A DNA stretch of 64,000 bases from Isoetes taiwanensis (taxonomy: Eukaryota; Streptophyta; Lycopodiopsida; Isoetales; Isoetaceae): positions 145,001 to 209,000 of the forward strand of contig JAJEKV010000192.1 in assembly GCA_021234155.1 (NCBI GenBank). Direction: 5' to 3'. This document shows positions 1 through 37,540 of this stretch, piece by piece. The translations under genes and the position numbers were made by a program. The first letter of the stretch is position 1, and the number at the start of each line of letters is the position of its first letter. The notes beneath the pieces were generated by a model. It was not told the DNA's origin, ran no database searches, and saw only the letters and a program-made list of their open reading frames with translations.

Positions 1-204
1 CATATGAATTGTGGTGATCCACTTGAGATGGCTAAGCTCTTGTTAAATACTTGCAAGAAGTGATTAATATAATTTTGTCTTCCTATTTGAGGCTTGTTGC
101 AACAAATAAATGTTTTTATTCAAAATTACTAATGGAAAAGTAATTTATTAATGAAAAAATTATTATTAATGGTAAATAGATTATTAATCATAACTTGTAG
201 ATAA

Positions 205-480
205 AATGTCGCTTCTGACGCGTCAAACCCTAGGTTTTGTGTGCTACATCATCAAACCCTAGATTGTAAATGCCATGTGGCACAATCTAGGATTTGATGA
301 TGTGACACACGCAAGCTAGGGTTTGATGACATGGCACTTACTATGATGTGGCAATATGAAATTAAGCCACGTGACACAACCTAGGGTTTGATGATGTGCC
401 ACACGCAATGTAGGGATGTGGCACTAAAAATGCCACGTGGGATAATTTAGGGTTCGGTGTATGACATGATACATGGCCTG
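205..480. repeat. Degenerate repeat array with CTAGGGTTTGATGATGTG core
   Basis: A short motif resembling CTAGGGTTTGATGATGTG recurs at roughly 50-70 bp spacing in both orientations, mixed with GCCACGTGG/GCCACATG pieces. No coding frame is visible. The bases before it (1-200) are AT-rich and show nothing recognisable. It could be the end of an unidentified element. Confidence 0.5.
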
Positions 481-559
481 ATAATATGGCAACCTAGAGT
501 TCGATATGCACCCCATACATATATATGAGATACTTTTCTAATATAGATAAGAAGATAAG

Positions 560-1440
560 AATATAAATTTAGGTATTTATTCAAAGATATTTGTTCAAAG
601 CTTTTCTCTCGCTAATTCGTTATGTTCAAATTAATATACATAGTCATGGCGGAGGCTCAACTCTTAAGCGGTCTTTCTCATTGTGGTTATCTTTCTCGAT
701 CGCGATATTCGTTGGCATTATCGTCTTCCCCTCGCCCCGGTCAAGGCTGCCCGATAGCGATCTTAGGGGCTCATTGGTAGTACATTTCAAACCATCAAAG
801 TACTATTTATGATCTGTATAGTTTGTAAGTATCATCCTATTATTGCAAACATATCATTTATGGTTATCAAATGTTTCTCTCATAATTTCTTTTGATCTAG
901 GTGTGCTAGTTTTCTCGACGATGAATAAAGGTAATCGCAATCGTTAGGGAGAATGACGAAGGGTAAGGTAAGTATTTATATAGTTTTTATCACAGCGTTA
1001 CCCTCTAATTAGGTATGTAGGTTTATGCATGGAGTTTTAATTTGTTGTGTAGAGGAAAGGGAAGAGCTTAGAGAAAATAGGAGGAGGACTCCACGAGGTA
1101 GGGGCAATCGTCTTTGATGTTCCAAGTAGTCAACCTCCACACACCTCTGTGGCGGAGTTTTGGGTATTAAGATAGCTTTTATAAAAATAATAAATAAATG
1201 GATTGTTTTTTGCGTGATATTTGTGCTTCTGCGGCTCCTCCGAGATTAGCTCTGATAGAGATTAGCTCTAGGCTAAAAGGGTGGATACTCCCCTTAACGA
1301 GTCTTTTGTGATTATTTAAAAATATAAATTCAATAGACGATTTTCATTAAAAAAAAAGGTGACATGCCTTTGCCTCTTGTACATCATATTGTAATTATCT
1401 AAGCAAAACATTTATTTTTTTTTAATTCTTTTTTCACAGA
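560..1440. other. Gene-free stretch
   Basis: Only short open frames occur here, and none shows protein-like composition or a known motif. I see no gene, RNA or clear repeat. Confidence 0.4.
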
Positions 1441-1471
1441 CGTCGCGTCACGGCGTCTACATTTTTTATTA

Positions 1472-1608
1472 CACGTGGAGTTTTTTATTACACGTGGATT
1501 TTTCAAATTTTTTACATAACATCGCAACGTCTACATTTTTTATTCCACGTGGCTTTTTTAATTGCACGTGGATTTTTTTATTACACGTGGAATTTTTATT
1601 ACACGTGG
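1472..1608. repeat. 19-bp minisatellite of G-box/ABRE motifs
   Basis: Six perfect CACGTGG motifs start at 1472, 1491, 1546, 1565, 1584 and 1602, giving steps of 19, 55, 19, 19 and 18 bp. The unit resembles TTTTTTATTACACGTGGA, and decayed copies (CACGTC, CACGTT) follow to about 1650. CACGTG is the plant G-box, and ACGTGG is the core of abscisic acid response elements bound by bZIP and bHLH factors. Whether the array is bound here is unknown. Confidence 0.7.
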
Positions 1609-1675
1609 ATTTTATATTCCACGTCAATTTTTTATAAATATTACACGTTAATTTTGACGCGTCTAGTATCACGCC

Positions 1676-1930
1676 GTGATGCGACGTCTATGTCACGTAT
1701 GTGTCACGTCCGTGTCACATCTGTATATGTCGCATGCGACGTCTATGTCACGTATATGTCAAGTCTATGTCACATATCTATCACGTCACATGTCACCGCG
1801 ATGCGATATCGCGCATGAGGCGTCTATGTGCAGCGTCGCATGCGGCGTGTCTCTAGTGACGCGTCTTCGTCCACGTCTATGTCGCGGGGTCGGGGCGTCG
1901 CATGGGCGTGACCGGACGTCGCTTCGCTGC
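1676..1930. repeat. TGTCACGT / GCGACGTC degenerate array
   Basis: Short words such as TATGTCACGT, GCATGCGACGTC and GTCTATGTC repeat irregularly, and the array turns CpG-rich towards its right end. It adjoins the G-box array, so the two may be parts of one element. No coding is supported. Confidence 0.5.
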
Positions 1931-1949
1931 GACGCCGCTAAATGGCCTT

Positions 1950-2120
1950 TCTCTGTTGTGGCGGTTCTAACCAAATGTAGCGCGTGGCACCTGAGAAATT
2001 CCCTGCTAAACAGACCAAATTTATGCAACGGTTCTTTTGCCTTGATCATCTAGGGTGCATTTTTGTAACCGGATCAATCAAAGTACTTTGCTCATATCTT
2101 GTGTTGCCATTTTCAAATTT
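1950..2120 (-). pseudogene. PHT1 phosphate transporter internal fragment
   Basis: This fragment aligns with about 36165-36338 of the PHT1 gene further right. It covers the end of the central loop and the start of the second half (residues reading FGLFSREFL, then HALHLV). It is joined directly to the larger PHT1 remnant at 2124, so the order of gene parts is scrambled: codons from the middle of the gene follow codons from near its end. It therefore represents a further partial copy, which suggests past tandem duplication of the locus. In the loop it carries TAG where the 36-kb copy has CAG. Confidence 0.8.
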
Positions 2121-2123
2121 GAG

Positions 2124-3489
2124 AGGGCCCTACTATTGCACCTCCTTGCCGATGCGTGTGAAATTCCATGGCATGTAGACCTTAGTCTTGCGGGGAAGAT
2201 CTTTGCGGGAACTATGAAAGTGGTGCCGTTTGGTCCAAAATTTGCAAAGAAGAATGTCAATGCATAGAGAATAACAAAACTCAAATGGTTGTCATTTTTC
2301 CAAAGGTGATAGTAAAGAAATGCCGGGGCAAACATGAAGACCGTCATAAAGAAAAAAAACCCATGAGCCGAATGGTAAATCTTCCAATCTTATCAATCAA
2401 GAAAAATCAGAACCAATAGCCGTGAAATCGGAGAAAAGAGCTATCGAGAGCACGGGCCCTAGCGATTTTAAACACTTCTTCAAGGGCACTCATGGTTTTA
2501 GGAGGATGCAACCACTCCAATTCTTTGTCAAAACATCTTTTCGGAAACAAATTACGGTCAGTAAAATGCCACATCTAAAAAGAACCATGTTGTTGTAGTT
2601 CCAACCAAATGTAAGCGGCGTGGCCCAGGGAGAAATTCCCCGCTAAATGGACCAAATTTACGCATCGGTTCTTCACTTGATCATCCGGGGTGTAGTTTAT
2701 GTAACCGGATCAACTGAAGTACTTTGCTCATATCTTGTGTTACTGTTTCAAATTTCCAAAGAACCAAAGCGGTATACTGGCGGTTTAAGCATCTTCATAC
2801 GCCAATAGTATGTCAAAACAACGGGAAGAGCACCAAACATGAAGATTAATCTCCATACAAAATCGCTTGAGAGGGAGTAGATAAAACAGATCATCTTGGA
2901 ATGCAGGGGTTGGGATATGCGTTGTTGAATGTTGCGTAAATAATTATAGAAACTGGCCGCTCCCGCAAGGATTTCAAAACCCCGCATGGCAAAATCTGGC
3001 CGCGCAATAAATCCACCCACGGTTCTCGGTATTTGCATACTCGGACATTATGGTGGCGAAAGGGGATAATCTCCGCCAATTCCAAACCCTAACCAAAATC
3101 TAAAAACATAGAGTTGTCATAACAGATTTTGCGGTATGCCCAAAGGATAAACCGGATGCTCTGAGCAGGGACCATTAGCACGAGAGTAATACCGTAAACC
3201 TTTTTCCGACCTAATTTATCGCCCAGCCAACCGAAGAAAAGCTGCCCTGCTAGGGTTCCACAAAGGGCAACTCCGTTAACCGCAGCAGATACATTTGGAG
3301 GCAGAGATCCAGGCTTCCCTGTGCTTGCATCGTAATAATAAATTCGCCCCAACAGCCTTGTAACCGTCGAGATGCAAAATAAATCATATGCATCTGTGAA
3401 GAAACCCATTCTGGCGATGATTATCCTGTAAAATGATACCATTGCGTCTTTGCCTTATCCAAGGCTGTTAAAACCTCAAGATTTGCCAT
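2124..3489 (-). pseudogene. PHT1 phosphate transporter pseudogene
   Basis: This is a second copy of the inorganic phosphate:H+ symporter gene at 35469-37073. It starts at the conserved ATG ([14 protein letters not shown], complement of 3489) and is almost identical for about 290 bp, including [12 protein letters not shown] and the [14 protein letters not shown] loop. It then loses frame repeatedly to about codon 452, where it joins the fragment at 1950-2120, so the last ~80 codons are absent. After the first 290 bp nearly every difference from the other copy falls at a CAG or CTG triplet, so some apparent frameshifts may be sequence errors and not mutations. The missing end and scrambled junction still indicate a non-functional copy. 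Confidence 0.9.
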
Positions 3490-4134
3490 GGACTAATCCA
3501 GAACACACAGAATTGAAAGAATTTGAAGGAGCGCTTTTTTGACTATGCATGATTAACTTATAAGGGTAGGATCTATATTTTTTTTTAAGGGAAATTTTTG
3601 ATGTGCCCTTATTCGTGCATGGCAAACTTTAGTATACCCTTAAGTGCACAATTCGAATTGCCTTTCTTTTTACTAGGATTACAAAAAGAGCAACTTATTT
3701 TAAGCAAATAGCTTACTAGTTTTAGAAAGAGGACATATTTTACTAGTACTTAGTATCATATTTACAATATACTTAACTGAAATATGAAGCCCCGAAAGTA
3801 TCAAGCAAGCTACCAAAGTTCTATGATCTGCCTATTTTTGTCATTTTTTTAATTCTTTGTATAAATGTATATCTAATCTACGACTTCCATCCCTTTTAGA
3901 CTATTCAGTGACACAAATATCAGTATCCATCACTTGAAATTTAATCTCAGCTTCTATCCTCATCTTTGATGCTATTCAAATCAATCTTAGGAATATATTC
4001 TACTGTAGCACACACCATAACAAAAATAATATTCTAAAAGAAGTAGTAGAATAATTGATTAGTCAGCTCAGTGGATTTTGCTGGAACTCGAATGAAAAAT
4101 TGACAAACAAGAGCTTGCTCTCATGTACGTGATT

Positions 4135-4509
4135 GTTAGATTTTCGTTACTCATTTTTCCTTCTTCGTCAAACAAATAACAACCACATTCATTAATTTTA
4201 ATCAATCATTGAGTTGAGGGATATTGATTAAATTTACTAACCTTCTTCAACATATATCTTGTTAGATTTTTGCTACTCGTCTTTCCTTCTTCGCCAAACA
4301 AATAACAATCACATTCGTTAATTTTAATCAATCATTGAGTTGAGGGATATTGGCTAAATTTACTAACCTTCTTCAACACATATCTTGTTAGATTTTTAGT
4401 ACTCGTTTTTCCTTCTTCGCGAAACAAATTACAACCACATTCATTAATTTTAATCAATCATTGAGTTGAGAGTATTGATTAAATTTACTAACCTTCTTCA
4501 ACACATATC
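4135..4509. repeat. 126-bp tandem repeat, three copies
   Basis: Three units begin at 4135, 4261 and 4387 with GTTAGATTTT and end in ACCTTCTTCAACA(C/T)ATAT. They are very similar to each other. The third unit lacks one base of the GAGGGATATT segment. Confidence 0.9.
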
Positions 4510-4627
4510 CAAGTATTTTTTGATAAAACCCAATAGTAGATAAGATAGTAAATATAACAAACATAAATAAATAAGTATAAAACTATATTCAGAGAAGGTC
4601 CTTATCAAGAGGACTCGTTAACAAAAT

Positions 4628-5374
4628 ATTAATGACATATTCAACAAAATTTAAACTTATTCAGATTTAATAGATAACACTTCAAGAACGCCATTATAAG
4701 AATATATGTATTGTGATTCTTCTTGATTGTTATAATTTTTATAAGTTTATCTTTAAATTAAAAGTATAATGGTTATCAAAGAATAAACTTGATTTTCAAA
4801 CTAATTTTTATTTGAATCTATTTAGAATTAGACATTTCAAGAATATAAATATTTCAATTTTTATTGATTTAACAGATTCAAGATTTAGCAATCATGATAA
4901 TTAAATGAAATCTGATGGTTTGATAAGCGATTGACTTAAAACTATTATTAGAATTTCACAACTTACAAACTTTTACACTTTAAAAAATACTTTAAGGAAG
5001 GTCTTAGGTTGAAATTAATTAAATGATATAACGTTATTGGTTTAATAATAACTATTAAATAATTTATTATTGATGAAATAAAAATATTTTAATCAAACAT
5101 AAACGTAACCATTTAATTAATTTCAATGTAAAACTTTCTTTAAATATTTTTTAAAAAATAGCATTTTAATTATACAAGGTTATCTTAGATGAAAATTTAA
5201 TTCTAAATAGATGGAACCAAGAATTAGTTTAGAAAGCAACTTTAAACTTTAGTAAGTATCATATTTTTTTTTATCTAAAGATAAACGTAACAAATTATTA
5301 AAATCAATAAAAGCTAAAAATACATTTATTACATTTGAATAAGTCCAAATTTTGTTAAATATGTCATATTAAGG
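4628..5374. repeat. 745-bp AT-rich foldback (imperfect palindrome)
   Basis: The left arm begins ATGACATATTCAACAAAATT and the right arm ends with its complement (AATTTTGTTAAATATGTCAT). Shared inverted words run inward to a centre near 5050-5060, for example TTGAAATTAATTAAATG on the left and its complement near 5110. It would fold into one long imperfect hairpin, as foldback transposons and large MITEs do. No protein is encoded. Confidence 0.7.
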
Positions 5375-5548
5375 TTTTTTCAAATTGATGCCCTTATTTT
5401 CAAGGGTCTTCATTTTTTTGCCCTTTTATGGTGGAGGGCAAAGTTTTTTGTTGCCCTTATAAATAATAGCTCCTAAGAAAATCCCTTAATTGGAAGGGTT
5501 GGAGGCCTACTTAAGGGTGGGCAACGTTGTAAAGTTGATCATTGCATG

Positions 5549-5995
5549 TAATTCATCATAGGATTGCGTTGGAATTTAATAGGGGGCAAATTGGGAATAA
5601 AGGTAAAGATGCTTCGTATATACCTTCATATGCTTCATATAAAGATGCTTCATATAAAGGTAAAGATGCTTCGTATATTCGTATAAGGATAAAGATGCGC
5701 CTTCCGACTTTTGCATGACTTTCTGCTCTGCAATTTTAATACAATTCAATTATAGTACGATGATTCAGACCTTGGTCAATCCCGTAACATTTTTCAATTA
5801 CACCATATAAAGGGTACGAGCAGTGTTGGGAAACTTTTAGAGCCTATAAAAAAATCTCCTAATGTTCCCTAAACAATAGGATATTTCAAGCTTCCTACCA
5901 TGTCTTCCTTTTGTAGAATAGGTAACACATGAAAATCTTCCAAATTTTTTTTTACCATCCACTAACTCGACCGAAAATTTTCTTGATTTTTCAAT
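5549..5995 (-). promoter_or_regulatory. Displaced 5' flank of the PHT1 pseudogene with P1BS sites
   Basis: This block is homologous to 37130-37540 upstream of the other PHT1 copy, including GGAATTTAATAG, AGTACGATGATTCA and AATTACACCATA. GTATATAC at 5616-5623 fits the PHR1-binding consensus GNATATNC (P1BS) and lies at the same place as in the other copy. A local expansion of the unit AAAGATGCTTC(G/A)TATA adds a second match, GTATATTC at 5673-5680. The 2-kb insertion now separates the block from its gene. Confidence 0.65.
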
Positions 5996-5999
5996 CGAA

Positions 6000-8323
6000 A
6001 CCGTCTTTAGCGACGAAAGGTTGCCCTCCTGGGTCTTGAAAGTGTCTTTTCATGGTTTCTTGTTTCTCGTTTATTTTCATGTTTTTTGTTTGATTGTTCC
6101 TTAAGATCGAGCTTGAATGCTAATTTATTTTTTTCATCCGGTTTGTCTCTTTCAACCGCCTACCTATTGTAAGGGAGAAAGAAAGAAGAATATAAGAATT
6201 GGGTAGACATTCTTCTTGTTTTTTGTTTTATTCGCAATCTACATGGTGAAAGAACTTTGCATGATATTATTGAGACAAGGGTCAGATTCTCTTGCTTAAG
6301 GACTTATGAAAGAATATGAGATCAAAGATCTGTGTACTTGCTCCAACCACACTTCACTGCACATATTTTCTTGTAGAAGTCGTTGTCCATCAGAGCACTC
6401 ATGCAGCTTGTGGGTGCTTCTTGCATTTTCTCATTTTTACCAGAAGTCATTATCCGTAAGCATTTGTGGGCACTCGTTTTCCACCTGCACCCCCTTTTTT
6501 TTTTACTTTGAATTCATTATCCACAAGGGCGCAAAATTAAATTGATGTGCACTTCTTTTTGTATTCTTTCCTTTTGTTTTGCTTTAGTAACACATCATTG
6601 GTTCTACAACTACATCAAGAATTCGGAGCCTTTTGAGCTTACCAGAGTCTTTTGAGCTTACTTTGTTTTAAAAAATATATGCCCTCTCACGACATGCTCT
6701 ACAACTATATCAAGAATCTAGAGCCTTTGAGCTTACCTTGTCTGGAATAATATGCACGTTCTCACAACCACATGGCCATAACGCCTCGAGGGAGGACGTT
6801 GCATAGCCCTTAAATCTAATGGTATAGATTTGTTATAACGTTGGAAAGAAACCTTCAATTTTCTTTCTTAGGTAAAAGTAGTTTTAATGTCTCATTTGCT
6901 AAAACATTTCAGAATCATTTTCAATTAAGAACATGCTTTTGACATCTATTTATTGGGAGATGCATAGGACCTTTATTTACATGTTTAGAATGAAATTAGT
7001 ATGCAACACACATCTATAGCTAGCAATCATTGAATTCCATGTCACGACATCCCATTTTGGCAATATGAAAAAATTCTACGTGCCTCTTTCAAGCTATCAC
7101 ATTGTAATACATATCTACAAGGCTATTTTCCACGACCATATTACATTGAAGATTAGCTTCGAAATTTGACAATTAAAGTATCTAGCTTGAGTTAAGGCAC
7201 TCATGCTGCCATAGGCTTTTAAGAAGCGAATGTGAACTTATATATGGCTCTATGTCGCCTTCTTTGCATGACTTTAAAATACTCTAGAACAAGGTGGCTC
7301 TCTTAAATGATCAACACAAAAGAGTATTATTACCATTGGAATGTGGAGGTAATTATTTGGGGCTCTTACGTCTCTAATTACATGGTTTCTTGGATTCCCT
7401 AATATTGCATCCAAGCTTTTCTCATATGCTTAGTGTTTGGCCAACGCCAGGGAAAGAGGAAGATATGAAGTTGAGGAAGATATGAAGTTGCGTTCAAGCC
7501 CAAAAACCCATAGGCCATTCCTGCATTGCCGCATCCTTGAAGATAGATTTCGAGAACCGATGCCTTTCTATGACCTATGACCACAAAAAAAAAAAACTAT
7601 TCCGTGGACGTTAAAAAAACTATTCTATTCTATTCTATTCTATAATAGCATTCACATTCTATTTAAGTCTGATCTTGTGACTCACCACAAAGACTATATC
7701 AAATTTTATATGAGCTTGGAGAAGCCAAGGGGAATGAAAAGGGTCTCCATCTGTGGCAGAACATTTGACTTATCTCTCACGTTTACAAATTATGGACTTC
7801 ACCAGCTTGAAATATGAGAAACTGCCACTCACAGATGGATGTTTTACATCATATCATGCTTCTATTCGTGTTTTATAGACCAGGAACTACTATCCAGGTC
7901 TGTAAATTTTATATTTTCCAGATCTTATAATAAGGAAACAGTTCTCCATTTATGAGTAGGCCTAGATGGGACACAGGCACTTAGCTTGCTAATAAAGTTT
8001 TTATTAAACTACATGATCATGTAGTTATGTAATAGTACATGTTATAAAAGACAATAAAAAAGTGATACTGCCTCATCATGAAGAAGTTTTGCTGGAGCTC
8101 TGGAATTGATCAACTGTTGCATAGCTGCATGTGCTGCTCTCTTTGCGATGAAACTAGAGATGAGAGTGTCGTCAAGGTATTAGCTGAATTTACACAATAA
8201 ACACACGACAAAACATAGAAAAAAAAAGTGCAAACAATTGCAGTACACTTTTGATGTTGATGCAAAACATTTGTTGTCATTGAGGACTGAAAAAACCACC
8301 AAAATCAATGTTGAATTGGCCTC
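6000..8323. other. Gene-free stretch
   Basis: I find no convincing gene. Minor structures are a partial ~95-105-bp duplication (6599-6660 and 6692-6745, around CTACAACTA(C/T)ATCAAGAAT) and a (CTATT)n microsatellite at 7619-7643. Confidence 0.5.
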
Positions 8324-8328
8324 ACATC

Positions 8329-8551
8329 TATTGGAACACATCAAGCACATCAGGCACATTAAGCACCACATCAAGCACATCAGTGGAACGCATCATTATA
8401 ACATCAGGAAATATGCATGCGTTTTGTCCATTTATAGAAGTAGTTAAACTAGGAGTTAAGATATTGTGACGTGTAAAGATCCGTTGTATTCTGTATAAAA
8501 GATGGAATAGAGAAGAGGGAAACAGGCTTTTGGGGATTTCTTGCTTCTTTA
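8329..8551 (+). repeat. 5' LTR of the copia element
   Basis: It starts TATTGGAACACATC, ends TTGCTTCTTTA, and matches 12719-12945. Near its start it holds a small internal array of CATCAAGCACAT-like words. The usual TG start and CA end are not present, so one or both ends may be mutated. Confidence 0.9.
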
Positions 8552-8563
8552 TGGTATCAGAGC
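8552..8563 (+). other. Primer binding site (tRNA-iMet)
   Basis: TGGTATCAGAGC directly follows the 5' LTR. It is the standard sequence complementary to the 3' end of plant initiator methionine tRNA, which primes minus-strand synthesis in many copia elements. Confidence 0.9.
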
Positions 8564-8606
8564 CGGATTTCTAAACATATTAGAAATACCGATCTTGCAA
8601 AGAATC

Positions 8607-9667
8607 ATGTCTACAAAGGGATCCATCGAAAAGCTTACTGCTGCTAATTCATATGTGTGGTTTATCAAAACCAGGGGAATTTTGGCGAAAAAAGGATTGT
8701 GGGGAGTGTGCTCGGGAGGAAACAGCTCAATCTCAAGAAAGATGACATGGGTCAAAGGAGGAGATGGCCAAGTGGGTGCAAAATTAACCGGAAGGCTAAG
8801 AATCGGATCATGAAGTACGTGAATGATGGGCAAATTCCTTGTATTGAAGAGGCATCCACAGCCAAAGAAGCATGGGATTATCTGATCAATGCTTTCAGAA
8901 AGGATCAGTTCTCCCAGCAAGTGATGCTTTATGCTCAAATCTTTACTGCAAAATTGAAAGATTGTGAGGATGCATCAAGCTATATTGAGGGGATCAGGAC
9001 TGCTGCAAAACAATTGCAAGGAATGGGTAAAGCTTTACCCGAGGATGCAATTGTCGGAGCTTTGGTGGTAGGGCTCCCACCAGCATTTGATGGAGTACGA
9101 GCAGTCATAGGAGGCGCAAAGGACGTAAGCCTAGACTGGGCTTGCACACAAATCCTGCAGGAGGAGGCTGTACGAACCAGCAGAAAGAAGCCTGAGAGAG
9201 GTGGTGGGAGTAGAGACTCTACTGCCTTGTATGCAGGTAGGGAACGTGCTGAGACAAGGACCTGTTACAAGTGTAACAGGGTTGGCCATATTGCAAGGAA
9301 TTGTGGAGAAAGTAACAAGGAAAATTCAAAGAATGAGGATGTCAAAGGAAAAGGGAAGTTAGTGGCTAAGAAGAAAAATAAGGCTACTAAAGCACATGTG
9401 GCTCACATTGAATCAGAGAGTGAAAGTGAAGAGGAAGATGACGAGACTAGTGATGGCAGCTTCATGGCCAGAGTTGAGGAAAATAGCACTTGGAAGAAAA
9501 TGCTTTGGGGAAAGATTGAGCAGACCATAGCATGGTGTACATCGTGGATTGTGAGAGATCACAGTATCAAAACCAATATATGTGCTATGCTTGCACATGA
9601 GGAGGATGCTTGGTTTGTGGATTCTCGTGCAACAGATCACATGACGCCACCTGAGACCTCTTTTTAA
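8607..9667 (+). pseudogene. Copia gag and protease region
   Basis: Gag probably starts at ATG 8607 (MSTKGSIEKLTAANSYVWF), typical of copia gag. The frame shifts near 8750 into a long open frame (8657-9667) that carries the rest of gag. A CCHC zinc knuckle lies at 9263-9304 (CYKCNRVGHIARNC), followed by a Lys-rich then acidic linker. The protease begins at WFVDSRATDHM near 9611. The family motif is DSGA, and here the Gly codon reads CGT, again at a position where CTGG would give the normal residue. The frame ends at a TAA at 9665. Gag packages element RNA, and the protease cuts the polyprotein. Confidence 0.9.
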
Positions 9668-9721
9668 TTCAAGGAAGAAGCAATTGGAAGGACAAGACAA
9701 ACAGGAAAGGGCAAGCTTAGA

Positions 9722-10740
9722 GTGGCTGGTACAGGCACAATCAAGGTCAGACTTGGGGAAGAGGATAAGGAAGTAACCGAGGTGCTTTATGTTCCAGGTC
9801 TGCCAGTCAACTTGCTGTCAGTTTCACAAATGGATGATGCAAATCTCAAGCTCACATTCGGGGGTGGCAAGTGTGTGATTCGTGGACCTCAAAAGCGGGA
9901 GTAATAGCACAAGGACGAGGTATGGCAAGTCAGATCGTCTCACTTGGGCTGCAGGACCACAAGCTTTTGTGATAAATGGATGTGACAAAGAACTTGCAAA
10001 TATGGCATGAACGGATGGGGCATTCCAATTTCAGGACATTAGGAAGATTGTCAAAATTGGGTCTGGTTGAAGATTTGCCATCTTTGAAAGGCAAGACCAA
10101 GCATCTCTGTGAGGGTTGTGCCAAAGGAAAGATCAGTGAAGACTCCATTTCCAAAAGGTGGCGCTAGATCGCGAGCAACCAAACCGCTTCGGTTTAGTGC
10201 ATATGGATTTATGGGGCCCTGCCGAAGTTCTCTCACTTGGAGGCAAACAAGTACTTTTCTGCTCATCATTGATGATCCGACCCGAAGAAGGCTTGGGCAT
10301 TTTTTCTCAAAAAAGAAGTCCCATACTTTTGAAGAGTTTACCCGGTGGAAGTTGGAGGTTGAAAATGAGAAAGACATGAAGATCAAGAGAATTCTGGACG
10401 CACCGAGGAGGCTAATTCATGGGCGGAAGGTTCCGTAAATTTTGGCGTGTCATGGTATAAGGCATGAGACATCTATACCCTATGAGCATGAGCGCAATGG
10501 GGTCGTGGGCGTAAAATCGAACTGCGGTCGAGGGAGCAAGAGCTTTGCTTCTAGGCAAACAACGGCCTACTGATCCGCTTTCGGGCGGAAGCGTGAGCAT
10601 GGCGATGTACATTCAGAATCGTTTGCCTACCAAAGCACTTGACAATATGGTTCCCGGCGGCCCTGGAGTGGGGTCAAGCCATCTGTCAAACACTTGCGTG
10701 TATTTGGATGCACAGCCTATGTCTACCTGAGCAAAGAGGA
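9722..10740 (+). pseudogene. Copia protease end and integrase, broken
   Basis: A first open piece (9722-9904) matches the region between protease and integrase (VLYVPGLPVNLLSVSQM). The zinc-binding gag-pre-integrase domain follows at 9976-10167 (WHERMGH, then CEGC). The catalytic core is only partly readable (HMDLWGPAEV near 10200, LIIDD near 10265) and continues in fragments to KALD and RVFGCTAYVYL near 10700. At least four frame changes occur. Integrase would insert the DNA copy into the host chromosome; this one could not be made as one protein as sequenced. Confidence 0.85.
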
Positions 10741-11138
10741 AAGAACACAAGGTAAACTAGCAGAAAAGAGCATCAAATGTTTGTTTTTGGGTTACTGTTC
10801 AGAGAGCAAAGGGTACAAACTTTGGGATCCTATCACAAAAAGGATGCTCAACCGCAGAAGTGTGACGTTTGATGAACATGATTTCAGTCTTGGCAAAGCA
10901 AACTCTTTGGATAATGATCGATGGAAATTGAATCATTGTATGATAGCGGTGATAGTGAGTCCGATAGTGATAAGTCGAAATCGGAGGTGGACCTGGTCCG
11001 TACTCCTCCCTCTCATATATCTTCACCCGCAAAGATTCCGCTCAAATGTACAAGATTCTCACCCTCCACTAAGGAGATCAGCGAGGACTTGAAGCCTACG
11101 GCACGAAAATCTTGAAAGGTTTGCCTTAACGCGTTTCG

Positions 11139-11870
11139 GTGACCATTGATGAACCAAATACATTTCAAGAGGCTCGCAGTGTGTGTCTAGGTCCGGGTCC
11201 GCTATGGCGGAAAGGCAATGGAAGAAGAGTTCCAATCACTTCAAGCTTAATGACACTGAATTGGTTCCTTTGCCTCGCGGCAAAGCGCCTTGTAGGATGC
11301 AAATGGATTTACAAAGTCAAATATAATGAGCAGAGCAAAGTGCAGAGGTATAAAGCGAGATTAGTGGCTCAGGGATGTTCTCAAATTCCAGGGATTGACT
11401 TTCATGTTCTCTCCCCTGTGGCTAGACTTTCGTCCATCAGAGCAGTGTTGGCCATCGCAAATGCACATGATATGGAATTAGATCAAATGGATGTCAAGAC
11501 GGCATTTTTGCATGGGACTCTAGATGAAGACGTATTCATGAGGCAACCTCCTGGATTCGAGTGCTCTGGCAAATCACCGTATGCAAACTCAAGAGGTCCA
11601 TCTATGGGCTGCGCCAGTCACCAAGAGCTTGGTATCAGACTATCAACTGTTTCTTCACAACACATGGATTCCAGCGCAGTCAATCTGATTGGAATATCTA
11701 CAGTAGACAAACTGAGCATGAATGGCTTATTATTGTCTTGTACGTCGATGATCTCCTTCTGGCTAGCACAAATCGCAGCAGTCTAGATCATCTCAAGATG
11801 CTTTTGTCACAGAGATTCCGGATGACCGATTTAAGGCAGGTTTGAGTTTCTTTTTGGGGATAAAGGTGGT
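11139..11870 (+). pseudogene. Copia reverse transcriptase, broken
   Basis: The reverse transcriptase starts after a linker with EPNTFQEA. Recognisable family blocks are GCKWIYKVKYN (11298 onward), RYKARLVAQG, DVKTAFLHG and PPGFE, then in a second frame KLKRSIYGLRQSPRAWY, and YVDD at 11741-11752 with LLLAS after it, and finally SFFLGIKV. Several joins sit at places where a CAG or CTG would restore the family sequence (for example near 11200-11290). Confidence 0.9.
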
Positions 11871-12189
11871 CGTAAATAGAGCTAAACGTGTGCTTACCCT
11901 TAATCGTGCTAAAATATCCAAGGGATTCTCAACAAGTTTGGCTTTACAGATTGTAAGGATTTGTCACGCCAACAAGGCCATCATCCACCTTACCCGGATA
12001 TGGCTCCTTCCAAATTCGAAGATGCGCCTACATGCAAGATATTCCTTTTCGTCATGCGAATCGGCAGTCTTATGCATCTCATGGTTTGCACAAGGCCGGA
12101 TCTAAGTCTTCAGAAGTTACTTCGGTCCGCTTTGAGTTGTCCCGTCCGTAACATTGGAAGGCGCAGTCGTCGATTCTCGAGGTATTTAC

Positions 12190-12675
12190 ATGCTACACAG
12201 ATCTTGGGCTTCACCGCGTAATGGTTTGCATGGGTTTGCTGATGCATTATGGGGGGATCTCATGGAAAGATACTCAGACGGGGGTAATCGCCTCCTGCCC
12301 AAGGGGAGTAGTTAGCTGGTGTAGCAAGAAGCGTAAAGCAATTGCAGCTTCGAAGTTGTGAATCAGAATATATGGCTCAGGTGCGCAGCAGCCAAGGAGG
12401 CAATTTGGCTCCAAAGGTTAATCAAGGAACTTGGGGAAGATCAACAAGGGCCCGTGGCTATATTCTCAGACAATCAAAGTCGCAATATCCTTGGCGAAAA
12501 TCCGACCAATTTCACCAAAGCAAAGCACATTGAGATCCAAAGATCATTTTACAAGAGAAAAAGATTGAGCAAGGGAAAATCAAGGTCACGTATCTATCCA
12601 CCCGAAGATGACAATGAGATATGTTTACAAAACCACTACCAAGGAAAAGGTTCTTGGAATGTGTTGAAGAATTAG
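12190..12675 (+). pseudogene. Copia RNase H, broken
   Basis: Fragments of the C-terminal RNase H domain are readable: GFADA near 12235, SWCSKKRKAIA near 12315, ESEYMA near 12361, then EAIWLQRLIKELGE and IFSDNQS, and KAKHIEIQ near 12520. RNase H removes the RNA strand during reverse transcription. Frame changes separate the pieces. The block ends just before the purine tract. Confidence 0.85.
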
Positions 12676-12710
12676 GCATGAAGAAAGTTTGAATCGATCA
12701 TATTTCCTTC

Positions 12711-12718
12711 GAGGGGAG
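12711..12718 (+). other. Polypurine tract
   Basis: GAGGGGAG lies immediately before the 3' LTR, where plus-strand priming takes place. Confidence 0.85.
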
Positions 12719-12945
12719 TATTGGAACACATCAAGCACATCAAGCACATTAAGCACCACATCAAGCACATATCGCTGGAACGCATCATTATAACATCGTG
12801 AAATATGCCGTCCTGTTGTCCATTTATAGAAGTAGTTAAACTAGGAGTTAAGATATTGTGGCGATGTAAAGATCCGTTGTATTCTCAGATAAAAGATGGA
12901 ATAGAGAAGAGGGAAACAGGCTTTTGGGGATTTCTTGCTTCTTTA
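12719..12945 (+). repeat. 3' LTR of the copia element
   Basis: It matches the 5' LTR over its full length with about ten differences. Most of these fall at CAG/CTG sites (for example CATCAGG versus CATCGTG). The flanking ACATC at 12946-12950 completes the target duplication. Confidence 0.9.
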
Positions 12946-12950
12946 ACATC

Positions 12951-15092
12951 AACTGCATGATAAACATTTTTTACAAAATCCCTTTGCCCACCTCCTACTT
13001 GTCATTACGCATAAACAGAAAAATTACAAACTTTTGTAAGACTAAAACAGTACGTCCATTTTACATTTTTCTACAGGCCTTTGAGTAGCAATGAAGAGGA
13101 AAGGCACACTATTCACCTTAATGATTGTCTTAGAACCAACAAAAGCTTCAACCTTTTTCCAATCACGGTTGAATCTGCAAGAAACACACACATCCATCCA
13201 CCAATAATAGATCCATCTGCACAACATTTACACACCTTAAGCATATTTGAAAGAACACATTTACAAATGGAAATGCATTGTGGAAGCAATGAACAAAGCA
13301 CCTCTCACTGATATGGGTTTATCTTTATACACTTTCCCGGAAAATAATGTGAACACCCGCAGTCGGGCCGATCACCTCAACAGGCTCCACAGCTGATCTG
13401 GATTCTAGAGCATGTACGCAAGTAGAAGCGAAAAGGGGTGTACTCTCACTGCTGCATCCTGAAATATGGCAACATGCAGTGATGTTGTAGGCCCTCTTTG
13501 TGTCGTGAAAGGTTGATGATCAATATCCTCATCAATATTGCATGTTCAATCCTATAAATACCACAATCCTGAGTTAGAAAGCAATTAAATATCTCATATA
13601 ATTTGCATAATAAAACTTGCCCTATGGTCCATGGGTTGAGGCATGCCCTAAGATGAAACAGTATTGACATGCTAGGAAGGATGCTCAGCCATATGTTACC
13701 TAAGTGAAAAAGCAAAAAACACAGTTCAGATGACTTTGAGAAAGCTTTGCATTCTCATTCTTGACCTTTTTTTCTATAAGGACAAAGAAATGGAATGAAG
13801 AAGAAATTTTTTGCAAGTAGCTATAGTCTGCTTAGAGGCCATGTCTTAATAACCAATCTGTCGACATACAGCCATCACGCATTGGATATTCCACCGTGGC
13901 CTTATAGACTATGGTAGGTTCATACTAGACGTAGAGTCTTTGACACTAATGGCAATCAGTGATCAGCAAACCACAACAGAAAAACACAAAGGAGCAAGAT
14001 GAACAAAAACAAAAATAACAACATGCAACAGTGCCATCAAAGTTTTCTTATTGCACAACTCAATATTAATACATTCACAATTTTTCTATCACATGAGGAT
14101 AAAAAAACAAAGCATAACGGATATCCAGACTTCTCACCAGGCAAGGATATTACTCTAAGAATATGCAACAAAGAACTAACACACCTATTCACTTACTGGC
14201 AAAATAATGACAAATATTCTTACTATTTGCTCATCACACACTATTAGCTGCTGAGTGACAACAAGTTGCTATTTAGCTGAGAAAAAAGACCTTGAGATTG
14301 CTCTTTCCAATGCACTCAGCATGAGAGCAGGTAATCTTTACCATCTACAACTAGAAGCTTTTACGAACAAAATGCAAAAGTTCAATGGTTTGCAAAAGCT
14401 TAATTGATGCCACAGAGGCTCGTGTTGCTTTATGTTCCCTATTTCTACCCTTCTATCATAAAATGGGCATGGCCTATCAGATCGTCCCTGCGATCTCCTT
14501 TAGTTGGTCTTTAGTGGACTTTGAAAAAGCTCTATGGCGATAAAACTAGACAGTTCTGATAATCAGGATAATAAGCATTTGAAGAGATTGCTGAAAGATT
14601 TGGTTATATACAGCAAATTTGGCCAACCTTTTTCGAACTAAACAAAAATGGACGTTCCTAAGAAGTGACAGAAAGCAAAAACCACGAAAAGCTGTATAAG
14701 AGAACTGTAATTGAACATCATAATACCACTTACGTCAACCATATTTTCTCTGCCTTACTTTAAATTTGCACTCAAACATAAAGGTTTCCTATTTTATAGT
14801 CAGTCACAGTGAAAAAGGTGTATATTGGCAGAAGCCACTTAAGTGTTATAAGAAATCTTAAGCGATATGCAATCTTGGAAGTTTACCATGGATGATTGTA
14901 ATGTTGGCTTATAGTAAGCTCATTATGTTTCCCCTTTGGCAATGATATGTGACTTGGTTTTCTATTTTTTTGCATTCAGTCTCTGTACTAATGCCATCAA
15001 CTAGTCTCCCACTTCAGAAGGTTTGGCTCTGTTATGCTCGATGAATAAATGTGACATAGATTTTGCATTCTGTTTGACTTTTAAGTGATTAG
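12951..15092. other. Mostly non-coding, possible exon remnants on the minus strand
   Basis: The region is dominated by short frames. On the minus strand about 13301-13113 reads a Cys-rich stretch (CKCVLSNMLKVCKCC), and about 13450-13340 reads SAVEPVEVIGPTAGVHIIF. Both have protein-like composition but no family I can name. They may be exons of a lost gene. Nothing else is supported. Confidence 0.25.
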
Positions 15093-15321
15093 GGTACTAG
15101 TGAATCTATGGAGGCTATTTCAGTGATTGAAAAGCTAAAGGTACTTGTGTCCTGCTTAATAAAATCTTCTAAATACTGCAATAACTAATGTTATTTTGTG
15201 AACCAGCTTGAGAAGATAAAGTACGAAAGATAGCTACATGAACTTGCATCAATGGTGGAAAGACTTGAAAGCGGAAGGCAGAAACTTCTTGTAGAGGTCA
15301 AGAACATTCCCAACAGAAGTT
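15093..15321 (+). pseudogene. Coiled-coil host gene, left part, interrupted by a LINE
   Basis: Two exon-like pieces lie in phase. 15093-15140 (GTSESMEAISVIEKLK) is bounded by AG and GT. 15207 onward follows AACCAG and reads LEKIKYER, a stop, then LHELASMVERLESG and QKLLVEVKN. The stop is a TAG at a position where CAG (Gln) fits the heptad pattern. Composition is that of an alpha-helical coiled coil. The LINE enters at 15322, and further exon-like pieces occur beyond its other end at 31812. I do not recognise the protein. Confidence 0.5.
15303..15321. repeat. LINE target-site duplication, left copy
   Basis: AACATTCCCAACAGAAGTT is repeated exactly at 31793-31811, after the poly(A)-like tail of the LINE. 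A 19-bp duplication is in the normal range for LINE insertion. Confidence 0.95.
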
Positions 15322-16444
15322 CCGGTGTTGACTTCTTCCATTAGTAAGGTGCAGTCTGGGTTTGTTCCTGGGAGGAACATTTTGACTAATGTTGCCGCAG
15401 CTTATGAGGGCCTTTATTGGGCCAGGAGAACAGGTCAAGGCATTGCCATCTTAAGCTTGACTTTGCCAAAGCTTACGATAGTGTCCGTTGGGAGTTCTTG
15501 TCTGCCATGATGTTAGCGTTGGGCTGTGGTCCATGCTTTACAGAGACAGTCATGAAGCTGCATAGGTCAGCACGGGCTATGGTGGTGTGCCAGGGTGAAC
15601 CCTCCGCCTTTTTCTGTTAGGCAGAGGGGTGCGTCAGGGGTGCCCTTTGGCGCCATTTTTGTTTACGATTATGGCGGAGGCACTGTCTCAGTTGTTTTTT
15701 GCTGCAGTGGAGGAGGTGGTGGTGGATGGGCTTCGGATGCAGGATGGTAGTCAGCAGATTATTAACCAGTTCGCCGATGACACTTTCCTCTTCTTGGTGG
15801 CAGAAGAGAGGAATTTGCGGAATGTGAAGGGTTTGCTGGATACTTTCTCCTTGGCCTCAGGCATTCTTCTGAATTGGGGTAAATGCTCCGCATTATGGGC
15901 CCAGCTGACTCCGCCTCTCCCTTGTTTGGCTCTATTCTCTTGGAAGGTGCTTTCAGGTAATGTTTGTACTAAGCTGTTGGGTATTCCCTTTGGAGGGGAT
16001 GTTTCCATGGGGAGGGTGTGGGATGACATTTTGCAGGGGTTGCAGAAACACCTCAATTGGTGGAAGGGTAGCAAGTTGTCCATGGCAAGTAGGATCACTA
16101 TTGCCAAGTCAGTACTTTGTAGCACTCATGTGTATACAGCATCTGCGATGTTAGCTCCTGAGGGTAAGATACAGGCTTTGGATAAGATTATTCGAAATTT
16201 TGTGTGGGGCGGAGATGATGAAGGGGCGGTTGTTAAAGTGGCTTGGTGGAAGTGTCTCCGCCCCCGGGAGGATGGGGGCTTGGCCATTTTGGATTTGGCA
16301 CTGCATAGTAAGGTGTTGGTCTCCAAGTTTGTTTGGAGGGCTCTGCATGGAGCATCTTCTCCTGGTGCGGCGCTGTTGTTGCAGTCTCTTCGCCATTGTG
16401 TGGCATTTGGGAAGCCGTCTGTGCATGTGGAGTTGCCCTGGGCA
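15322..16444 (+). pseudogene. LINE reverse transcriptase, left part
   Basis: The readable blocks of a plant LINE reverse transcriptase are GFVPGRNIL near 15360, KLDFAKAYDSVRWEF (motif A, second frame, near 15440), RQGCPLAPFLF (15632 onward, motif B), QFADDT near 15770 (motif C, F-A-D-D), then NWGKCSALW and the thumb region to ELPWA at 16444. Two frame changes occur before 15629, and from there the frame is open up to the CACTA insertion. The enzyme would copy element RNA at a nicked target. Confidence 0.9.
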
Positions 16445-17030
16445 CACTACAAGAGGATAGGGTTTTTGCGTCAACCCCTGCGTCACTACCTTCAAAGGTT
16501 TGTCAGATTTGTGTCAGAAGCTTGAAAGTGACACAAATTAATTTGATTGCGTCAGAACTTGTCTCAATACAATTGTGTCAATAACAATGTCATTTTTATG
16601 GCACATGTGTGTCAAAATTTTGGAATTTTTTCGTTAGCTTTTATAATGATGATTACATCGTTTATTGCAACAATATTGTGACATAATTTAAGTCAATGTA
16701 GCAATAGGTTTGTTTCCACCATCACATCGTCAGTTCTACAGTTTTGGGTCAATTTTGTTATGCATTTGTGACACATTTTGTGATAGTTTCTTGTCACCTT
16801 TTGTAGAACTTTTGCATCATTTTGTAGTATCATATATAATGGCAATTTTACGTCAACTTTTTGTTATAGATTGTGGCACTTATATCTTGTGATTGTGTCA
16901 AAAAAGTGTCAATGTAGTGACATTGTTAAGTAGAAATACATAGATATCTTGACACAAAAAGGGCTAAGTTTGACACAAAAGTGCCACTAACTAATATGAG
17001 GGAAACAACCTTGCAAATAAACATTTTATA
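16445..17030. repeat. CACTA left end and subterminal repeats
   Basis: After the inverted repeat, the words GTGTCAA, GTGACAC, TGACACAAA and TTGTGTCA recur many times in both orientations. In CACTA elements such arrays bind the accessory transposition protein. The open frame running in from the LINE to 16525 is chance read-through. Confidence 0.85.
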
Positions 17031-35468: not shown

Positions 35469-37073
35469 TTACACCTCTGCTGAATTTCTTTTTGGGTATG
35501 CAGGAACTACCTTCATCTCCTCTTCGTTATTTTCCTGTGACAGTTCTTCCAAAGACTTGCCCTTTGTCTCCGGTACACAAAATGTGAAGAGGAAACCCAA
35601 ACAGTTGCATATTCCTAGCCCAATCAATGCAGCCCTTATGCCAATTCCTGTGGGATAGCCAGGATCAGTCTTAGCCGGGTCTCTGCTCTGTGCAGCATAT
35701 AAAAATCCAAAGGCCCCTACTATTGCACCTGCCTTGCCAGATGCAGCAGAAATTCCATGGCATGTAGACCTTAGTCTTGCAGGGAAGATCTCTGCAGGAA
35801 CTATGAAAGTGGTGCTGTTTGGTCCAAAATTTGCAAAGAAGAATGTCAATGCATAGAGAATAACAAAACCCAAATGGTTGTCATTTTTCCAGTGATAGTA
35901 AGGAAATGCCAGGGCAAACATGAAGACTGTCATAAAGAAAAAACCCATGAGCTGAATGGTAAATCTTCCAATCTTATCAATCAAGAAAACTATAAACCAA
36001 TAGCCAGGAACGGTGGAGAAAAGAGCTATCAGAGCCTGGGCCCTAGCGATTTTAAACACTTCTTCAAGGGCACTCATGGTTTTAGGAGGATGCAACCACT
36101 CCACTGCTGTCAAAACATCTTTCTGAAACAAATTCTGGCTGTAAAATGCCACATCTAAAAAGAACCATGTTGTTGTAGTTCCAACCAAATGTAGCGCGTG
36201 GCGCCGGAGAAATTCCCTGCTAAACAGACCAAATTTCTGCATCGGTTCTTCTGCCTTGATCATCTGGGGTGTAGTTTATGTAACCAGATCAACCTGAAGT
36301 ACTTTGCTCATATCTTGTGTTGCCTGTTTCAAATTTCCAGCAACCAAAGCAGTATACCTGGCAGTTTCTGGCATCTTCATACGCCAATAGTATGTCAAAA
36401 CAGCAGGAAGAGCACCAAACATGAAGATTAATCTCCATACAAAATCTGCTTGAGAGGGAGTAGATAAAACAGGATCATCTTGGAATGCAGGGCTGGGATA
36501 TGCATTGTTGAATGCTGCAGAAATAATTATAGAAACTGCTGCTCCTGCAAGGATTCCAAAACCCTGCATGGCAAAAACTGCTGCAATAAATCCACCCCTG
36601 GTTCTGGTATTTGCATACTCAGACATTATGGTGGCAGAAAGGGGATAATCTCCGCCAATTCCAAACCCTAACCAGAATCTGAAGAAACAGAGAGTTGTCA
36701 TAACAGATTTTGCAGTATGCCCAAAGGATAAACCAGATGCTACAGAACAGAGGACCATCAGCATGAGAGTAATACCGTAAACCTTTTTCCGACCTAATTT
36801 ATCGCCCAGCCAACCGAAGAAAAGCTGCCCTGCTAGGGTTCCACAAAGGGCAACTCCGTTAACCGCAGCAGATACATTTGGAGGTAGAGATCCAGGCTTT
36901 CCTGTGCTTGCATCGTAATAATAGATTCGCCCCAACAGCCTTGTAACCGTCGAGATGCAAAATAAATCATATGCATCTGTGAAGAAACCCATTCCGGCGA
37001 TGATTATCGCTGTAAAATGATACCATTGCGTCTTTGCCTTATCCAAGGCTGTTAGAACCTCAAGATTTGCCAT
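35469..37073 (-). pseudogene. PHT1-type phosphate transporter with one in-frame stop
   Basis: PHT1 proteins are plasma-membrane H+/phosphate symporters of the major facilitator family that take up phosphate, mostly in roots. The frame starts at ATG 37073 ([14 protein letters not shown]) and ends at 35469 after 534 codons, the usual family length. Visible features are [12 protein letters not shown] (about 30-41), the LGDKLGRKK loop (89-97), the PHT1 signature [13 protein letters not shown] (140-152), [12 protein letters not shown] after the central loop, [14 protein letters not shown] and [15 protein letters not shown], and a hydrophilic C-terminus. Twelve membrane segments are expected. One TAA (36276-36278) interrupts the variable central loop after KVLQVDLVT, and the same frame continues with PQMIKAEEP. 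The broken copy at 2-3.5 kb has the same TAA. It could be a recently dead gene, a truncated half-transporter or a sequence error. Confidence 0.9.
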
Positions 37074-37540
37074 GGACTAATCCAGAACACACAGAATTGA
37101 AAGAATTTGAAGAAGAGCTTTTCCGACCATGCATGTAATTCATAGGATTGCCTTGGAATTTAATAGCGGGCAAATTGGGAATAAAGGTCAAGATGCTTTG
37201 TATATACTCTGTGAATAATAATAGACTCGTGTGCGCGTTTACGACTTTTGCATGACTTTCTTCTGTGTAATTTTAATACAATTTAATTATAGTACGATGA
37301 TTCAAGCCTTGGTCAACCCCATAACTTTTTTTCAATTACACCATAAAGGCTACGAGCAGTGTTGCTTTTATAGCCTATAAGAAAATTTCTATATGTTCCC
37401 TAAGATATTTCAAGCTTCCTACTAAAAATGTGAATCTTCTTTGTAGAATAACACATTAAAATCTTCTAGACATTTTTTTACCATCCACTAACTCTGACTA
37501 GAATTTTTTTTTTAATTTTCCAATCGAAAAAACCTTTTTA
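37074..37540 (-). promoter_or_regulatory. PHT1 upstream region with P1BS/TATA-like site
   Basis: GTATATAC at 37200-37207 (about 130 bp before the ATG) fits both a TATA box and the PHR1-binding site GNATATNC. P1BS sites control phosphate-starvation genes in plants, PHT1 genes among them. The region is conserved with 5549-5995. Function is inferred from the motif only. Confidence 0.55.

Follow-up and report, generated by a model that had tools for sequence, protein, structure and literature searches.

The Isoetes taiwanensis assembly (1.66 Gb in 1110 contigs) contains false letters that are concentrated at CAG and CTG triplets, occur in patches and are found on more than one scaffold. The most fully documented case is a transporter gene copy in the 64,000-nucleotide stretch of contig C1010 that was analysed, here called the window. 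This copy has lost nearly all of the CAG/CTG triplets that are present in a paralogue at about 36 kb in the same window. The corruption is almost certainly a data artefact and not biology, and the likely source is nanopore error at 5-methylcytosine (5mC) in CWG, left behind by incomplete polishing. The features discussed are listed in Table 1.

Loss of CAG and CTG in the transporter gene copy

Window 2124-3551 aligns with the 36-kb copy (35711-37135) at 91.8 % identity. Counted by alignment column, 57/60 CAG/CTG triplets of the 36-kb copy are changed in window 2124-3185, a figure that is somewhat alignment-dependent, as at a few sites (e.g. 2887 and 2904) an indel lies within or next to a triplet that is still readable. 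Under any alignment at least 47/60 are gone, because 2124-3185 holds only 13 CAG/CTG in all. The near-total loss reported in the first-pass annotation was thus confirmed, with three survivors, at window positions 2777, 2996 and 3123.

From the 36-kb copy to window 2124-3185, the number of CAG plus CTG falls from 60 to 13 and the number of CGG plus CCG rises from 6 to 34. The most frequent outcomes at the changed triplets are CGG (17/57), CGT (7/57) and CAA (5/57), and an indel is present at 17/57 of the changed sites. By contrast, only 4/51 CAA/TTG and 3/53 ATG/CAT triplets are changed. Among the remaining triplet types, between 0 and 67 % are changed, with the high values belonging to rare triplets or to those that overlap CAG/CTG. 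CCG/CGG, which is also a CHG context, offers few sites in the comparison with the paralogue, 3/5 being changed in one count and 4/6 in another.

The limits first proposed for the corrupted block, 2124 and 3185, are correct on the right side only. There the edge, near 3185, is sharp, with 0/13 CAG/CTG changed in 3186-3551 as against 57/60 in 2124-3185 (Fisher p = 6e-12). The left edge is not at 2124, as 1954-2120 and sequence further left also differ at CAG/CTG from a second copy of the locus on contig C1063. Eight further pairs of repeats within the window did not show the pattern as clearly, but each has no more than 13 CAG/CTG, too few to decide.

The paralogue matches Pfam PF00083, and the gene is of the sugar/phosphate-transporter type, presumably PHT1-like. 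In this reference copy, a single in-frame TAA at window 36276-36278, which is not at a CAG, separates one stretch of 266 aa from another of 268 aa (35469-37076), both free of stops. The 167-base fragment at 1954-2120 directly precedes the larger copy, and since the same layout is found at C1063:5243029-5243198, the duplication of the fragment is probably older than the split of the window and C1063 copies. Exactly 5,000 N, which may represent an assembly gap, occupy C1010:140001-145000 and end at the window start.

Table 1. Coordinates, strand and main characteristics of features in the window
Feature	Position	Strand	Comment
Extra fragment duplicating transporter part 36168-36336, partly corrupted	1954..2120	-	Some CAG sites differ from C1063, others agree
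Corrupted stretch of MFS sugar/phosphate-type transporter gene copy	2124..3185	-	57/60 CAG/CTG changed; Pfam PF00083 on paralogue
Clean remainder of transporter gene copy	3186..3551	-	0/13 CAG/CTG changed; C1063 corrupted to ~3365
Clean paralogue, used as reference	35711..37135	-	CAG/CTG observed/expected 1.95
Inserted LTR retrotransposon of the Copia type, lacking in C1063	8329..12945	+	gag, SH3-like and RVT_2 domains; putative LTRs 8329-8551 and 12719-12945
Reverse transcriptase region	15500..16526	+	Frame 15599-16525, 308 aa, open in window; PF00078; probably LINE type
Collinear stretch, identical bins alternating with corrupted patches	1..8328 = C1063:5241096-5249411	.	Second copy, probably other haplotype
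Collinear stretch	12946..16526 = C1063:5249407-5252990	.	Window 13250-13749 lacks 9/21 CAG/CTG of C1063

A second copy of the locus on contig C1063

Apart from one Copia insertion in the window, window 1-16526 is collinear with C1063. When the alignment was divided into 100-column bins, 51/119 were identical (1.1 expected under Poisson) and 25/119 had at least 10 differences (2.7 expected). Therefore, the true divergence is tiny and the differences have been added in patches. A second locus pair, L021 on C1063 and L023 on C1010, lies ~24-25 kb upstream at much the same spacing, and its members can be aligned along their full 3.1 kb. Hence C1010 and C1063 look like two haplotypes, or else like the products of a duplication that is very recent.

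The corrupted patches in the two copies are offset. In 2124-2440, the window has lost 13/13 CAG/CTG and C1063 has kept 10/13. In 2440-3185, both are corrupted, with 44/47 CAG/CTG changed in each. In 3186-3370, it is the window that has kept all of its triplets (8/8) and C1063 that has lost 5/8, and in 3371-3551 both are clean (5/5). At the 42 sites in 2440-3185 that are changed in both copies, the letters differ at 26 and agree at 16. When the window, C1063 and the 36-kb copy were compared over the same interval, at least one differed at 124/311 columns within 2 nt of CAG/CTG, compared with 30/456 columns farther off. Inherited mutation hardly explains patches that are offset, with different letters at the same sites in two copies. 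It is therefore strongly supported that the changed letters are false consensus letters and not inherited variation, as the first-pass annotation had proposed.

The pattern is less simple in window 1-1900, where 124/1908 columns differ from C1063 and 13/20 CAG/CTG of C1063 are changed. As ACG/CGT (20/79) and GAC/GTC (16/60) also differ there, not all errors in this part follow the motif. Concentration of the errors on one motif was found in 2124-3185 and in the Copia set described below, and is not clean in window 1-1900.

Transposons and other transporter relatives

In the window, the reverse transcriptase is encoded by an uninterrupted frame, whereas its counterpart on C1063 has 29/43 CAG/CTG changed and is full of stops.

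For the Copia gag, 42 matches were found, and eight other copies with at least 90 % identity were compared together with the window copy, using a real copy, L051, as reference. L053, L054, L055 and L056 lose 13, 15, 23 and 23 of 37 CAG/CTG, respectively, largely in runs, and away from CAG only 10-15 of 777 bases differ from L051. L057 and L058 lose 20 and 30 of 37, but their divergence elsewhere is greater too (59 and 56 of 777). Losses are smaller in the window copy (6) and in L052 (5/37). Over the whole set, 46 % of 296 CAG/CTG cells are changed, compared with 1-34 % for other triplets. The putative LTRs of the window insertion are 92.5 % identical, which may be an underestimate because errors occur at CAG/CTG.

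The transporter has 45 matches in the genome. Thirty were cut out and 21 examined, the nine left out (L035 and L038-L045) being short pieces. The CAG ratio is at least 1.3 in 17/21. Seven of the 21, with a long open frame (at least 381 aa in the matched part), are clean and equally CAG-dense (CAG ratio 1.65-1.97). However, dead copies are not always corrupted, because ten short or frame-broken pieces, which include the reference copy, are clean as well. The four CAG-poor pieces, L017, L018, L023 and L031 (ratio 0.43-0.82), are fragments or have broken frames, though corruption itself breaks frames. One of these, a fragment on C1087 (L031/L061), has lost 26/33 CAG/CTG relative to L024, which at 85 % overall identity was the closest among the five relatives set against it. 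Transporter relatives appear to be clustered in both copies of the locus, with six matches and a fragment on C1010, and eight matches and a fragment on C1063.

CAG/CTG observed/expected was also calculated for 179 1-kb bins. It is below half the expectation in 31 bins, and in 14 it is <0.6 with CGG/CCG above expectation. This measure is patchy, suggestive and dependent on the type of sequence, and a skewed composition is not in itself proof of corruption.

The assembly also contains two rbcL genes with long open frames, L059 (C1052:5414801-5418800) and L060 (C840:19001-23000), which share 89.5 % DNA identity. One is on a 34.5-kb contig, followed by a frame that we take to be accD-like, and the other is inside an 11.4-Mb scaffold. 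Contamination, a mitochondrial insert, or plastid DNA that is foreign or was transferred long ago could account for these loci. As a recent plastid insert and its source, on which errors could be tested, the pair was rejected because of the ~10 % divergence.

Causes of the errors and comparison with known systems

Many of the changes create a CpG. In the transporter gene copy, a CpG was gained at 32/57 changed CAG/CTG sites (no CpG at 25/57), compared with 7/44 control changes at triplets away from CAG/CTG. The corresponding values are 19/29 and 5/43 for the reverse transcriptase, 15/26 and 6/86 for L061 against L024, and 69/124 and 4/263 for Copia copies L053-L058 pooled. Outside the pooled figure, the window Copia copy has 3/6 (control 0/11) and L052 has 0/5 (control 0/35). 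These phantom CpGs would fit a basecaller that had learned "methylated C then G".

In plants, transposons and silent copies of genes carry CHG methylation. If, as seems probable, the assembly was built from native nanopore reads, CAG/CTG cytosines in silenced DNA (transposons and dead gene copies) would carry 5mC placed by the plant CHG pathway. A basecaller apparently used to 5mC mainly in CpG would tend to write CpG at these positions, so that CAG becomes CGG and CTG becomes CCG, sometimes with an adjoining indel. Methylation of a site on both strands would make the error systematic, and it would outlive the consensus. A second correction step, probably with short reads, would then have mended most places and failed in stretches with too many errors or with ambiguous reads. 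Incomplete polishing of this kind may explain why the failed patches remain as corrupted blocks with sharp limits, for example 2124-3185.

The case for CHG methylation, which the first-pass annotation gave as the cause, is indirect. The CWG target, the phantom CpGs, C-to-T differences at CWG in a Copia copy, the clean open transporter genes and bacterial precedents all point to it. The C-to-T evidence comes from L052, where the five CAG that differ from L051 are all CAA or TAG and none is CGG. Relative to L051, C-to-T is found at 5/74 CWG and 3/360 CHH sites, and in the reverse reading at 2/68 and 2/362; these counts are small and unpolarised. The further suggestion that the errors act as an unplanned methylation map is weakly supported. 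As the position of the corruption varies between copies that are nearly identical, a factor besides methylation sets where errors remain, most likely the reach of the second correction. A corrupted patch may be a hint of methylation, while a clean patch says nothing about it.

A consensus artefact at CAG/CTG that is independent of methylation, such as a weakness of the basecaller or polisher for this triplet that persisted in unpolished stretches, shares all of the sequence evidence with methylation-induced error, and is in keeping with the ten clean short or broken transporter pieces. We nevertheless consider it improbable. The seven open transporter genes are clean despite being equally CAG-dense, although these may simply have polished well; the Copia family with corrupted copies has more C-to-T at CWG than at CHH; and the outcomes often create CpG. 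In addition, motif errors of a like kind mostly vanish on amplification (PMC10687267).

A real mutational process at CAG/CTG (hypermutation, a deaminase or repair at CAG) is very unlikely. The changes are dense and motif-specific, as it would predict, and the CAA and TAG outcomes in L052 look genuine. However, copies that share many identical 100-column bins have differing wrong letters at the same sites as well as offset patches, and stops abound in the reverse transcriptase frame of one but are absent from that of the other. Moreover, A>G, T>C and indels are not products of cytosine deamination. Methylation-driven C-to-T decay (RIP-like or by spontaneous deamination), which turns CAG into TAG or CAA, is not what is seen in 2124-3185, where CGG (17) and CGT (7) are the most frequent outcomes and CAA accounts for 5/57.

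That the 36-kb copy has decayed instead, from ancestral CGG/CCG to CAG/CTG by CpG deamination, is scarcely credible: CCG to CTG and CGG to CAG do have the form of CpG decay, but the CpG form would then be expected in other close copies and C1063 has CAG/CTG at 10/13 sites of 2124-2440 where the window differs, the CAG ratio is at least 1.3 in 17/21 transporter pieces, and the indels (17/57 changed sites) and outcomes such as CGT are left unexplained.

If errors of this kind are general, plant genomes assembled in this way have patches, in silenced repeats and gene fragments, where frameshifts and stops are false and divergence is inflated, and pseudogene calls, transposon dating and CpG/CHG statistics would be distorted. 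A simple screen that needs only the assembly is to look, between copies that are nearly identical, for runs in which CAG/CTG are lost and CpG gained. The artefact is useful as a warning to assembly users and as a crude clue to the location of methylation. A bolder possibility, which we put forward tentatively and hold to be somewhat less than an even chance, is that plant assemblies from native nanopore reads are a fossil of their own CHG methylome, with phantom CpGs at methylated CAG/CTG. Given a clean copy of a repeat, runs of CAG to CGG with normal flanks would then mark CHG-methylated copies without an assay, and pseudogene calls and repeat ages at these places would be false.

Among the matches listed in a search of open-access titles and abstract openings, none described consensus errors at CAG/CTG or CHG in nanopore assemblies of plants, which argues only weakly that no such description exists. 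For native plant DNA, reduced accuracy of nanopore sequencing has been reported, with methylation and untrained models suggested as likely causes (PMC9749173), though the main text of that report names no CHG or CAG motif (0 occurrences).

The closest relatives of the errors described here are bacterial. In Kit 14 data, methylation-linked R/Y ambiguities (A/G and T/C) are reduced by PCR and occur at the motifs RACG/CGTY (PMC11610573). The A/G and T/C confusion is alike, but the motifs are different and the reads lean to G/C. As the true base in the example shown there is G, the error direction is not the A-to-G seen here, and PMC11610573 backs the kind of confusion and not its direction. In Listeria R9.4 data, mismatches at GCAGC and GCTGG, both of which contain CAG or CTG, are left after ONT polishing and largely removed by amplification (PMC10687267). 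In that study, mismatches and not indels explain the low quality, in contrast to the 17/57 changed sites with an indel found here. Finally, nanopore basecallers make consensus errors at the Dcm motif CCAGG/CCTGG in Klebsiella/Enterobacteriaceae, and these are nearly absent with basecalling models trained on such DNA (PMC6591954). The likeness is that a C-W-G-containing motif is affected and that the Dcm cytosine is methylated. The Dcm errors concern bacteria and one 5-base motif, whereas here they concern a plant and nearly every CAG/CTG, in patches. The corruption adds a case from a plant to a type of error that is already known, and does not represent a new biological system.
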